Positions 14,780 through 34,674 of a stretch of 64,000 bases of DNA are shown here, one piece after another. Numbering within the stretch: the first letter of the stretch is position 1; each line of letters starts with the position of its first letter. Below the pieces are notes generated by a model. That model did not search any database. It saw nothing but the letters and a program-made list of their open reading frames with translations, and was not told the origin of the DNA. Both the position numbers and the translations under genes were made by a program. Source of the DNA: Oscillospiraceae bacterium (lineage in GTDB: Bacteria; Bacillota; Clostridia; Oscillospirales; CAG-272); the NCBI GenBank assembly GCA_015064685.1, contig SVRT01000010.1, positions 1-64,000 on the forward strand, written 5' to 3'.

Positions 14780-14864
14780 ATTTATGCCTCCTAGTAGGTG
14801 TTTTATATTTGAATTATACCATCATTTGATGGAAGAGTCAACACTTAAACGCGCAAAAGTACAA

Positions 14865-14979
14865 GACCTTTCAATTTTGTCGCAGACAAGGCGCACCGGA
14901 GGAAACCAAGCGCAGGCGTAGTTACCTACGTCAAGCTGTTTCCGAGGAGCAACGCCGTATGCGGCAAAAGTCAAAGGTC
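14865..14979 (+). repeat. Structured intergenic element, copy 1
   Basis: Nested stems 14865-14871/14973-14979, 14875-14883/14961-14969, 14901-14906/14938-14943, 14915-14921/14926-14932; core blocks shared with 19335-19411. Confidence 0.85.
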
Positions 14980-14988
14980 GCGAATAAA

Positions 14989-15025
14989 TAGATAAGGGGT
15001 GCGTGTACCGCACCCCTTATCTATA
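14989..15025 (-). terminator. Terminator of rplU-prp-rpmA operon
   Basis: GATAAGGGGTGCG ... CGCACCCCTTATC 13-bp perfect stem with T-rich tail on minus strand. Confidence 0.75.
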
Positions 15026-15039
15026 GCCTGTCGAAAGAA

Positions 15040-15318
15040 TTAGTCAGCGTATACGCTAACCTGCTTCTTTCCGCCTGCCTTATGCTCAAACTTAACCCTT
15101 CCGTCGATAAGAGCGAAGAGCGTATCATCCTTACCGATACCAACGTTGTTACCGGGATGAATAGCTGTTCCTCTCTGTCTTACGAGGATGTTGCCGGCGA
15201 GAACTACCTGACCGTCAGCTCTCTTAACGCCAAGGCGCTTGGATTCGCTATCACGGCCGTTCTTGGTAGAACCGACACCCTTCTTATGAGCAAAGAACTG
15301 TAAACTAAGCTTTACCAT
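15040..15318 (-). CDS. rpmA: 50S ribosomal protein L27, with Prp-cleavable N-terminal extension
   Basis: [34 protein letters not shown]. Confidence 0.97.
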
Positions 15319-17851: not shown

Positions 17852-19270
17852 TTATGCCTTTTTTCTTATAGATCTGAGAACGTCAAGACAACCGAGAATA
17901 ATATCTCTCCCGTTAATCACAAGACTAACAAGCAGTATAGCACAGGATGTTAAAATTCCCCAAGTCTCACTTCCCCATCCCGTCATAACGACCGAAATCG
18001 CGGTGATCAACACCGTGTTAACAATAAGCTTCATAGGATACATCTTAAACGGAATAAATCTCTGCATTGTGACCGCGCGGATCACAAACACGATAAAGTA
18101 GCTCGCATAAGTAGCAACCGACGCGCCCATCGCTCCGTACGGGGGGATTAATATCACGTTTAACGCAACATTGACTACTGCCCCGATAAGTGCCGTCCAG
18201 AATGACATTCCGGTCTTCTTCACCGTAAAATACGCGCTTCCGAGGAAGGTATCAAGCGAGGTAAACACGGTAGCGGCAGACAGTATCGGTATAAATATCC
18301 AAGCCGAAAAATAGCTTTCCGCAAACAGTATTTTAGCAAATATCTGCGCACCGACCGCTAGTATTGCTCCACCCGCAAACATCACGGCAAGGTAATACTT
18401 AAACACCTGAGAATAAAACCTGGTACACTCTTCCCTATCCTCAGACTCGGCAACCGCAGACAGCTTCCACGCATCATTGAAAATTACAACAACGTATGTC
18501 AGCAGCGTAGGTATCTTGTATGCCGCGGCATAAAGACCGTTTTCTGCGTCCGAGCAGAGATACGCGACCATATATCTATCCGATACACCGGTCACCCACC
18601 AGAAAACAGTTGACGGAACGAGTGGCAGACAGAATCTCATAAGCTCCCACATAACGCGACCGCTTGTCTTTTTGGGTTTGAACGCGCGATAAAGCTTCGC
18701 GGTAAATACCAAAAAGACCGTCGACAGAAAATCAGCAAGAACGATCGAGAGAACGTATCCGTTGATACCCATATCAAATCCAACGAGGAAAAGGATATTG
18801 AGCAAGACCGTCAGCATCGTATTTATTACTCCCTGAACGGCAAAAAGCTTCGTCCGACCAATCGCGCAGACGTACTGCGAGCATACCGAGTGGATATTCG
18901 ATGCAAGAACGTAAATAATTATCAGCCAGATATAATCCGTAAAATACTCGAACAAGCTGAGCAACGGTGACAGAACGAGAAAAATCGCACTTCCGATAAG
19001 CATAAGCACCGCGCCGTTCGTAAAGAAGGATTCCTTGTCTCCTTCCTTTGCGGCAGCGTTGCGGAATATACCCTCGCTCACACCGAGGCAAGCGATCGGG
19101 ATCAGAAGATTACATAGGTTTGTAATCAGATCCGAAGTACTGTACTCCGCACTTGAAAGATAGGAGGTATAGAACGGAAGCATAAAGATGACGATAAGCT
19201 TTGAAACGAACTTACCGACAGTAAATATCAGAGTATTCGATGCAAGACGCATCCATTTATTCTGTTTCAT
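17852..19270 (-). CDS. Polysaccharide biosynthesis/flippase-type MOP-superfamily membrane protein
   Basis: Multi-TM; 'LIFTVGKFVSKLIVIFMLPFYTSYLSSAEYSTSDLI' typical of Wzx-like flippases. Confidence 0.85.
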   Translation of the reverse strand: MKQNKWMRLASNTLIFTVGKFVSKLIVIFMLPFYTSYLSSAEYSTSDLITNLCNLLIPIACLGVSEGIFRNAAAKEGDKESFFTNGAVLMLIGSAIFLVLSPLLSLFEYFTDYIWLIIIYVLASNIHSVCSQYVCAIGRTKLFAVQGVINTMLTVLLNILFLVGFDMGINGYVLSIVLADFLSTVFLVFTAKLYRAFKPKKTSGRVMWELMRFCLPLVPSTVFWWVTGVSDRYMVAYLCSDAENGLYAAAYKIPTLLTYVVVIFNDAWKLSAVAESEDREECTRFYSQVFKYYLAVMFAGGAILAVGAQIFAKILFAESYFSAWIFIPILSAATVFTSLDTFLGSAYFTVKKTGMSFWTALIGAVVNVALNVILIPPYGAMGASVATYASYFIVFVIRAVTMQRFIPFKMYPMKLIVNTVLITAISVVMTGWGSETWGILTSCAILLVSLVINGRDIILGCLDVLRSIRKKA

Positions 19271-19313
19271 TTTACCTCCCGTATTAATTTGGTCATCTTT
19301 ATAGATAAGGCAT

Positions 19314-19432
19314 CAGCCTGTCGAGATTTTTTGAAGACAAGGCGCACCGGAAAAGGCAAAGCGAAGGCGTAGTTATCTACGTCAAGCTGCCTTTGAGGAG
19401 CAACACAGTATTCAGGAAATATCGGCAGGCTG
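19314..19432 (+). repeat. Structured intergenic element, copy 2
   Basis: Outer stem 19314-19335/19411-19432, inner 19352-19357/19389-19394; 77-nt core (19335-19411) same length as copy 1 core (14884-14960). Confidence 0.85.
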
Positions 19433-19439
19433 ACTAACT

Positions 19440-20171
19440 TTAGTCGCAATTATCGCAGTTGTGATATACTTCCATTACGTCGTCATCTTCCTCGAGCTTC
19501 TCGATGAGAAGATTCATAAACTTAAGGTCGTCCTCATTGTCAATATTAACGGTAGTGGAAGGAACCTTTGTCTTTTCAGCGTTCTCAAGCGTGTATCCCG
19601 CTTCCTTGAGCGCATCCGCGATAGCATAAACGTCGTCCGGAACGGTGTAGATCTCGAAAACTCCATCCTCACCGGAGAAATCCTCGGCGCCTGCCTCGAG
19701 AGCAGTCTCCATAAGCTTGTCCTCGTCGATCTCGCCGTCCTCGTCCATGATGACGATAACGCCCTTCTCCTCGAACATAAAGCTTACACAACCTGTCTGA
19801 CCCATATTACCGTGATACTTTGAGAAGTAGGAACGGATATTGCCCGCAGTTCTGTTTCTGTTATCGGTGGTAGCCTCAACGATGACTGCAACGCCGGAGG
19901 GACCGTAGCCCTCGTAAACTACCTCCTCGTAGGACTCACCCGTACCGCCGAGAGCCTTTTTGATCGTTCTCTCGATGTTATCGTTAGGCACGTTGTTTGC
20001 CTTTGCCTTCTGAATAAGGTCACGGAGCTTGGAGTTGGACGCGGGATCTCCGCCGCCCTCCTTTACCGCAATAGTGATCTCCTTGCCGATCTTTGTAAAG
20101 ACCTTTGCTCTCGCGGAGTCGGTCTTTTCCTTTTTGTGCTTGATGTTAGCCCATTTGCTATGTCCTGACAT
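19440..20171 (-). CDS. YebC/PmpR family DNA-binding regulatory protein
   Basis: MSGHSKWANIKHKKEKTDSARAKVFTKIGKEI. Confidence 0.96.
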   Translation of the reverse strand: MSGHSKWANIKHKKEKTDSARAKVFTKIGKEITIAVKEGGGDPASNSKLRDLIQKAKANNVPNDNIERTIKKALGGTGESYEEVVYEGYGPSGVAVIVEATTDNRNRTAGNIRSYFSKYHGNMGQTGCVSFMFEEKGVIVIMDEDGEIDEDKLMETALEAGAEDFSGEDGVFEIYTVPDDVYAIADALKEAGYTLENAEKTKVPSTTVNIDNEDDLKFMNLLIEKLEEDDDVMEVYHNCDNCD

Positions 20172-32802: not shown

Positions 32803-34674
32803 TTAGTCCTCTTTCTTCTTGAAGGAAACAAGACCTGCTGCTGCGATAGCAACTACTGCGATTGCGCCGAATCCAACTACGCCGCCGCATCCGCTCTTCT
32901 TCTCTTCCTTCTTATCATCAGTCTTATCGCTGCTGTTACCACCGGAGGTAGCGGGAGCCTTCTCGGTCTCCTCTGTCTTTGTTGTCTCCTTCTCGGTTAC
33001 ATCATCACCGGGCTCAGTTGTAGGATTATCATCACCGGGCTCAGTTGTAGGATTATCATCACCGGGCTCAGTTGTAGGATCATCATCACCGGGCTCAGTT
33101 GTAGGATCATCATCACCGGGATCGGTGTCTGTTGTGGGAGGAGTAACTTCGCCTCCGCCAAGCTCCTCGATGTATGCTTCAAAGTAAGCGTTAGCCTCTG
33201 CCTCTGTTCTGAAGAATGCAAGTGCAACGATGTCAAAGTTATTTCTTTCAGCATCGCTACCCTTCATACCGGCAACGTCAACACGGAGACCGTTAATTCT
33301 TCCCTCAAGTCCTGCGATGGTAGACCAGTCGAATACGAAGTAGTGATAGAAATCATCACCTACGTATGTGGGCTCCCAGTAGGAGAGAGGATTGCTTCTT
33401 GCTGCGTAGGAGCTGGACTCCTGAACGAGGTTACCTGCAAGTGCAAGCATATTTACAGACTCTGTGCATGTGCAGTATTCCTCGGGAACACCGTCTATAT
33501 CGCTGTCGGTGTAGTTACATGTACAGAAGTTTCTTGTGATCAAGAGAACGTAGGGGAAATCCTTTGTATCGTAGGATACTTCGTTATCAACGATATACTT
33601 TGCGTTTGCCATGTTATCGGTGTTAGCAAGAACGTTGATGGAGTTATCGTCGTTTACAACGATGATGTTACCCAAAACGGATGTGGGCTTACCCTTTACG
33701 TTAGAGTCAGAACGAGAACCGTTAAGAACGATTGCGGGCTCGCCTTCGGGAATTGTAGAAGCGTCTGCGATGGGAGCTGTCTCGTTGGAGTAAGCATCAG
33801 GAGCTGCCTCGTCATCACCCTGAGGAGGAGCTGCATCCTCTGCGCTTGTTCCGTACTTAAGAATTGTGCATCCAAGTGTACCGCCCATGGTGTTGTTCTG
33901 GAGCGAGAAGCCAACGTATGCCTGGTCGTCAAGCTCTGCGAAATAGTCGGTAGCTGCCTGGTTGTATGCGTCAGGTGCGGGAGCACCGTTAATGGAGATC
34001 GCGTATGTCTCGGAGTCTGCGTCCCAAACGATCTCAAAAATGATAATGGGGAATACTTCTGTCTCGCCGTCTGCAACGGTAACTTCGTTACCCTCAGCAT
34101 CAACGAACTTATTTACATAAAGCTTATCATTTGCTGTGTTGGAGCATCTGATTCTCTGTCCCTCTTCAAGGTCCTTATACCACTCAAGGCCCTTCATAGC
34201 GCCGGGCCATGTTGCAGGATCTTCAGCATTGTACTTAACTGCGTCAGCCTCATTCGTACCAACAATACGGATAAGTGTCTCAACACCGTAACCGTAGTCA
34301 TCACCCTGCTTACCAAGCTCAACGTTCTGCTGGTCCCAGATGCTCAATCCGAACCAACGGTCGCCTGCATCGTATGTAAACTGGTCAACTCTTACCTCGA
34401 GGTAAACGCCTTCCTTAAGGTTTACGGGCTCTGTTGTCTGGAAGGTTGCGTAAGGTGTGGAATCCTTCCAAGTTGAAGGGATCATCTGAAGTCCCTCGTC
34501 TGTGTACTTGTATCCGGGAACGTCACGCATAATATCTGCATAACCATCGAGATACTGTGACTTGATCGCGTATACGGACCAGTCGCCGTCTACTGCAGAT
34601 ACAGAAACGGTTGCTACTACGAGAGTTGTAACAAGCATTGCTGCAACGAGCAGTACTGAAAGAAATTTTTTCAT
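32803..34674 (-). CDS. Secreted surface protein with Thr/Pro/Asp repeat linker and C-terminal Cys-Gly/TM/basic anchor-like signal
   Basis: Signal peptide; (TTEPGDD[ND]P) repeats; C-terminus KKSGCGGVVGFGAIAVVAIAAAGLVSFKKKED; paralog of 34901..36673. Confidence 0.75.
   Translation of the reverse strand: MKKFLSVLLVAAMLVTTLVVATVSVSAVDGDWSVYAIKSQYLDGYADIMRDVPGYKYTDEGLQMIPSTWKDSTPYATFQTTEPVNLKEGVYLEVRVDQFTYDAGDRWFGLSIWDQQNVELGKQGDDYGYGVETLIRIVGTNEADAVKYNAEDPATWPGAMKGLEWYKDLEEGQRIRCSNTANDKLYVNKFVDAEGNEVTVADGETEVFPIIIFEIVWDADSETYAISINGAPAPDAYNQAATDYFAELDDQAYVGFSLQNNTMGGTLGCTILKYGTSAEDAAPPQGDDEAAPDAYSNETAPIADASTIPEGEPAIVLNGSRSDSNVKGKPTSVLGNIIVVNDDNSINVLANTDNMANAKYIVDNEVSYDTKDFPYVLLITRNFCTCNYTDSDIDGVPEEYCTCTESVNMLALAGNLVQESSSYAARSNPLSYWEPTYVGDDFYHYFVFDWSTIAGLEGRINGLRVDVAGMKGSDAERNNFDIVALAFFRTEAEANAYFEAYIEELGGGEVTPPTTDTDPGDDDPTTEPGDDDPTTEPGDDNPTTEPGDDNPTTEPGDDVTEKETTKTEETEKAPATSGGNSSDKTDDKKEEKKSGCGGVVGFGAIAVVAIAAAGLVSFKKKED
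33000..33123 (-). repeat. In-frame 27-bp tandem repeats (9-aa TTEPGDD[ND]P units)
   Basis: 'ggatcatcatcaccgggctcagttgta' repeated with T/C variants, >4 copies. Confidence 0.9.

Follow-up and report, generated by a model that had tools for sequence, protein, structure and literature searches.

An apparently uncatalogued hairpin element, seen in anaerobic Firmicutes and some Gammaproteobacteria, with changing stem letters but a constant folded shape

What is the structured stretch that stands twice between genes in this window (the whole 64,000 nucleotides analysed), and what keeps it folded? A first-pass annotation had described it as an intergenic element that is structured and does not code, its loops conserved and its stems covarying, and fold z-scores and alignments bear this out. 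Copy 1 folds at -52 kcal/mol (z = -6.7; none of 200 shuffles was as good) and copy 2 at -56.8 kcal/mol (z = -8.1), both far exceeding chance expectation, while their reverse strands fold less well (z = -3.6 and -4.5, respectively). The covariance model places the boundaries exactly at 14865-14979 and 19316-19430. The features are:

14865..14979, + strand (folding strand): copy 1 of the hairpin element, full length, 115 nt; covariance model 121.6 bits, E 3.6e-25
14865..14884, + strand: left outer arm of copy 1, variable, partner 14960-14979
14888..14892, + strand: internal-loop strand AAGGC of copy 1, conserved, (nearly) invariant in alignments A2 and A4
14893..14897, + strand: core helix GC.A.CC of copy 1, partner 14946-14950; covaries from C-G to U-A
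14901..14906, + strand: left side of the inner stem of copy 1, GGAAAC, partner 14938-14943
14915..14932, + strand: terminal hairpin of copy 1, GGCGTAG-TTAC-CTACGTC; recurs in two forms, GTAG/CTAC and TTAC/GTAA
14951..14956, + strand: internal-loop strand AACGCC of copy 1, conserved in the alignments
14960..14979, + strand: right outer arm of copy 1, variable, partner 14865-14884
14986..15030, no strand assigned: separate terminator-like hairpin that lies between copy 1 and rpmA, AAGGGGTGCG TGTA CGCACCCCTT, read from the sequence; folds alone
15040..15318, - strand: gene upstream of copy 1, an ORF that we take to be rpmA (ribosomal protein L27) from its protein sequence and the neighbouring rplU/prp genes; stop codon ~61 nt from the element
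19316..19430, + strand: copy 2 of the element, 115 nt; covariance model 124.9 bits, E 5.7e-26
19440..20171, - strand: gene upstream of copy 2, an ORF presumably encoding a YebC/PmpR-type protein, to judge by its sequence; stop codon ~10 nt from the element

The shape shared by the copies

Direct reading of the two copies confirms the outer stem reported earlier, GACCTTT..TTTTGTCGCA pairing with TGCGGCAAAA..AAAGGTC, as well as the blocks said to be shared, one identical at 17/17 positions (14884-14900 and 19335-19351) and a second matching at 28/30. The inner stem is GGAAAC/GTTTCC in copy 1 and AAAGGC/GCCTTT in copy 2, with double changes at four of the six pairs, also as described. Minus-strand ORFs run across both copies (14822-15013 and 19267-19449) and give similar small peptides (..APRKQLDVGNYA..PVRLV..); they look like annotation traps rather than genes. 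Elsewhere in the window, tandem repeats of 24/72 bp (1249-1503) and 27 bp (33000-33120), of in-frame lengths, are probably repeat regions within proteins.

Eleven copies (alignment A2) align without gaps over 115 columns, and the element ranges from 115 to 121 nt in length. Read from the outside inward, each copy of A2 begins with an outer stem of some 20 pairs whose letters vary. AC/GT comes next, then an internal loop in which AAGGC faces AACGCN, followed by GC/GC, an A.A mismatch, CC/GG and a small loop, GSA/GA. Innermost are a six-pair stem, also variable, another of three pairs, and the terminal hairpin. Since the strands of the internal loop read alike in the alignment (RCAAGGCGY and RCAACGCNGY), the loop appears to be pseudo-symmetric. 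When the alignment is widened to 58 copies from several orders, the covariation noticed in the first pair grows stronger: at 41 of 42 base pairs some sequences differ on both sides, pairing holds in 91.2% of cells compared with 33-40% in slid controls, doubly changed cells number 703 compared with 103-149, and the covariation score is 0.717 compared with 0.08-0.11 for slid structures. The core helix switches too, from CC/GG to GG/CC in some lineages and from C-G to U-A, while the internal loops CAAGGCG and CAACGC are constant. Small palindromes, GCAAGC..GCTTGC(GTA), are inserted within several copies (L221, L226, L234, L210, L034 and L035), many of them flanked by GAGGA and CGC or sitting in the terminal loop, and constitute a second repeat family nested in the element.

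Copies elsewhere and where they sit

BLAST with copy 1 gave 17 matches in this genome, and R1, a covariance model made from the 11 copies of alignment A2, found 19 copies, two of which the first-pass annotation had met; homologs beyond that pair are abundant, here and, by covariance models, in other genomes. Among the copies of this genome is a tandem array (G000:C17:119646-120525, L006-L009) of six near-identical 157-bp units, each consisting of one hairpin and a spacer of ~40 nt; one unit contains an N run. The earlier remark that this is not a recognised named RNA family holds in Rfam (release 15), where no family reached the gathering score in the window and the element was unmatched in 11 copy loci up to an E-value of 5, the T-box match there being to the host leader of one copy. 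A literature search found no description of it, and the hairpin is apparently uncatalogued. Near another copy, L016:1061-1136 matches Gut-1 RNA (RF01706) at 79.3 bits.

The element is found in anaerobic Firmicutes and some Gammaproteobacteria, and over this range the folded shape is kept while the stem letters change. Within the same family R1 has matches in 20 of the 120 genomes; the R2 model, some of whose matches are weak, has them in 21/294 Clostridia, 68/151 Negativicutes and 47/291 Gammaproteobacteria genomes, several of the source genomes being incomplete MAGs. One 4.5-Mb Negativicutes genome holds 94 copies. Selenomonadales MAGs and Thalassolituus maritimus (two copies before tRNA genes) are among the pattern-scan matches listed; in the latter (L096:7344-7977) the element stands ahead of duplicated tRNA units that by eye resemble tRNA-Val and tRNA-Asp, and has the same sense as they do, a placement unlike that in Firmicutes. 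One proteobacterial pattern match (L118) is without the element's fold and was taken as chance. Carriage by phages or plasmids was considered and rejected, as viral contigs contain no match and a distant blastn with one copy each found none in phages and plasmids.

In Gammaproteobacteria and one Clostridia lineage, related motifs lie within near-identical repeats of roughly 130-290 bp. Some of these have clear terminal inverted repeats, G443 giving an example in GGGCCTGTTC with its CTAG flanks; inverted pairs of opposed motifs occur in G443, G488 and G654. Repeats in G443 (L301-L303), G601 (L309) and G488 (L310) are MITE-like, with long terminal inverted repeats, and some are CTAG-flanked; they might be called IS5-like, by flank only. 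The possibility raised at the outset, that further hits would resolve to a known IS or MITE end, applies in part, to the motifs in these MITE-like repeats, while the solitary copies here are without such ends: among solitary copies we saw no terminal inverted repeats beyond the arms and no conserved target tag, and no target-site duplication could be demonstrated. A supposed transposase between inverted copies in L117 turned out to be a transketolase subunit.

Which strand folds can be read from 83 copies found by loop sequence alone, hence blind to the arms. Their arm pairing scores 25.7 on average compared with 11.1 when arms are swapped between copies, and they contain 102 G.T pairs compared with 36 A.C mismatches (p 2e-8); because G.T on one strand reads A.C on the other, the element strand is the folding one. 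Upstream on this strand there is no enrichment of -10-like sites.

The element sits mostly just behind a stop codon, in one orientation, with its folding strand on the gene's template strand. By a heuristic test for opposite-strand ORFs of at least 120 codons running into the right end, 104 of 123 copies have such an ORF, and in 85 of these 104 its stop codon lies -12 to +21 nt from that end; on the left side the same test, as a control, finds stop codons evenly spread. The placement is repeated in an independent genome with 30 copies (G803; 19/25). Since the ORFs that stop at the right end lie on the opposite strand, it is usually their template strand that folds. Copy 1, at ~61 nt from the rpmA stop, is off the rule, and two copies in this genome (L030, L034) are exceptions that lie upstream of a gene's start, where antisense ORFs were counted. 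The sense entry of the right arm is enriched in stop triplets (90/120 compared with ~68 in shuffles) and the left arm is depleted. The genes next to it, such as rpmA, yebC, pgk and queA, have housekeeping roles and are not cassettes; queA is the neighbour in several genera, and there the right arm includes its last codons and stop, to which codons the left arm is complementary. These queA copies hinted that arms are copied from the target sequence, an idea that we rejected, as at the s8 locus the arms are unlike the empty site. The strand asymmetry, the lack of a promoter signal and the antisense position together make it seem likelier that the element is recognised as single-stranded DNA than that it serves as a dedicated RNA.

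That the element inserts is clear from empty and filled orthologous sites and from a copy within a T-box leader. Across 12 congeners its presence is patchy, orthologous sites being filled in some and empty in others, and it has been lost at many loci. At the s8 locus this genome and G421 are filled, with a compensated difference in the inner stem, and G049 and G428 are empty, with other sequence directly after the TGA stop; the element is wholly absent from congener G049, and its relative G428 is without it at the loci examined. The T-box leader (L010:1428-1788; G000:C15, - strand) houses its copy in the hairpin loop just before the antiterminator and is intact apart from this insert. It hinted at insertion into existing terminator hairpins, which we rejected since rpmA retains its own separate terminator-like hairpin. 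Structure and loops are kept at rpmA, pgk, yebC and one further orthologous locus while the stems change, and among the six intact orthologs at the rpmA locus the inner stem occurs in several complementary versions and the terminal hairpin in two.

What the element may be and how its pairing is kept

Placement, patchiness, copy number and MITE contexts all point to a mobile repeat, and with a little more than even confidence we take the solitary copies to belong to a hairpin repeat of the REP/BIME/MITE class that is dispersed and non-autonomous and forms its own family. The carrier strand, mobilising enzyme and function are what we infer beyond this. The template strand, when single during replication or transcription, would fold into a rod of ~42 pairs, and the pseudo-symmetric internal loop (RCAAGGCGY across RCAACGCNGY) would be recognised by a putative trans-acting protein that moves or copies the element, the arm sequence being free so long as the arms pair. 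Insertion at gene ends would do little harm and copies would then persist for long, their pairing kept by selection on folding, by arm-to-arm template switching, or by both. A bolder and distinctly more tentative proposal is that these are cross-phylum mobile single-stranded DNA hairpins, known to a putative enzyme by their shape and one pseudo-symmetric loop rather than by their ends, and delivered to the template strand behind stops. Against a mobile repeat speaks the persistence of structure when orthologous loci of different species are compared, since an insert without use would be expected to decay there; a host function is thus possible. The solitary copies, with no separate terminal inverted repeats, target tag or demonstrated target-site duplication, and the off-rule positions of copy 1, L030 and L034 also count against it.

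The earlier argument that covariation implies selection on structure stands only in its first half: the covariation is real and does not by itself establish selection. At the rpmA, pgk and yebC orthologous loci we counted 73 double transversions, 73 double transitions and 29 one-sided G.U states (contrasts between pairs of related species, not independent events), and at pgk both arms are replaced as blocks. Sequential compensation via G.U should favour transitions, whereas template switching, which is reported to create and maintain RNA hairpins (PMC8794818), changes both sides at once; equal double transversions and transitions with scarce G.U are what one arm rewritten from its partner by template switching at a palindrome should leave. 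The covariation could then be mutational, with template switching at a quasi-palindrome rewriting arm from arm so that any old insert looks structurally conserved. We regard this as a serious minority possibility, compatible with a mobile repeat as it concerns how the pairing is kept. Arm copying alone, however, does not predict that mismatched loops remain mismatched and conserved across phyla, nor the excess of G.T over A.C on one strand. These need something further, so selection and template switching may both act.

Somewhat unlikely, in our view, is a cis-acting RNA under selection. On the reverse strand such an RNA would be made as the 3' UTR of the gene, on the folding strand as an antisense or 3'-end RNA, and it would tune mRNA decay, ribosome release or convergent transcription. 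It would account for the structure and loops kept at four orthologous loci while stems change, for the precise proximity to stop codons (in G803 also) and for the stop triplets of the right arm with their scarcity in the left. However, the strand that folds better is antisense to the adjacent gene and has no upstream promoter signal, the 100-odd copies adjoin unrelated genes, and the element is absent from G049, from G428 at the loci examined and from the many loci where it was lost.

If the mobile-repeat reading is right, an abundant element in nearly half of the sampled Negativicutes genomes appears to be missing from the RNA-family catalogue. Its many copies are a natural experiment on whether covarying stems mean selection on structure or template switching at palindromes, a question made testable by orthologous copies and empty-site outgroups, and the placement rule (template strand, behind stop codons) points to an unexplained targeting mechanism.

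Comparison with known systems

REPs are dispersed palindromes of 20-40 bp that mostly follow coding regions, in many cases no more than 20 bp from the 3' end of an ORF, with alternative complementary stem residues, G.T pairs, opposed pairs, GTAG/CGTC tags and RAYT transposases (PMC3733652). The element is like REP/BIME in being dispersed, mainly downstream of ORFs, with alternative complementary stems, G.T pairs and opposed pairs, and unlike them in its length of ~115 nt (115-121), conserved internal loops and fixed orientation to the gene. Despite these likenesses, actual membership of a REP/RAYT or IS200/IS605 system is improbable. The GTAG or CGTC tag marks neither end (1-10 occurrences among 120 ends, ~7 expected by chance), and the Y1 transposase/RAYT family PF01797 was not found in nine carriers (G106, G420, G423, G425, G426, G028, G099, G121 and G123); this genome has one match, at C24:95914, ~48 kb from the nearest copy. 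Size, missing tag and lack of a Y1 transposase in the nine carriers exclude REP/RAYT membership on the features tested. The IS605B stem loops of Borrelia, which are IS-derived, lie where lipoprotein genes end and overlap the last codons (PMC2775950). They resemble our element in their 3' position and overlap, and differ in having short stems recognisably from an IS605 element.

Very improbable is an attC-like recombination site of an integron-type system, although likenesses exist in the imperfect hairpin, the folding of the template strand, the adjoining stop codon and the variable sequence with shape kept. Integron attC sites are themselves placed next to a stop codon. They form imperfect hairpins of which the bottom strand folds (PMC8876359), the same strand as here. 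In contrast, the conserved part of our element is internal rather than at the stem base, where RYYYAAC/GTTRRRY boxes (including the R-box GTTRRRY) are absent in the arm alignment, the element ends share no sequence, and the housekeeping neighbours come with no cassettes or attI. Least probable of all is a transcription terminator, for despite a strong hairpin at gene ends no T-run directly follows the element in the gene's direction, as an intrinsic terminator would have, and a terminator-like hairpin belonging to rpmA itself lies between that gene's stop and copy 1.

Bacterial MITEs and bcr1-bcr18 of the Bacillus cereus group are repeats that are short and non-autonomous and lie in UTRs or between genes, in some cases with a conserved secondary structure (PMC3446304 and references therein). 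Our element is likewise short, non-autonomous, located in UTRs or intergenic regions and conserved in secondary structure; unlike them, its solitary copies are without terminal inverted repeats apart from the hairpin, its motif crosses phyla and its outer arms vary from copy to copy. By analogy, the nearest precedent for its dispersal, 3' placement, G.T pairs and opposed pairs is provided by REPs.
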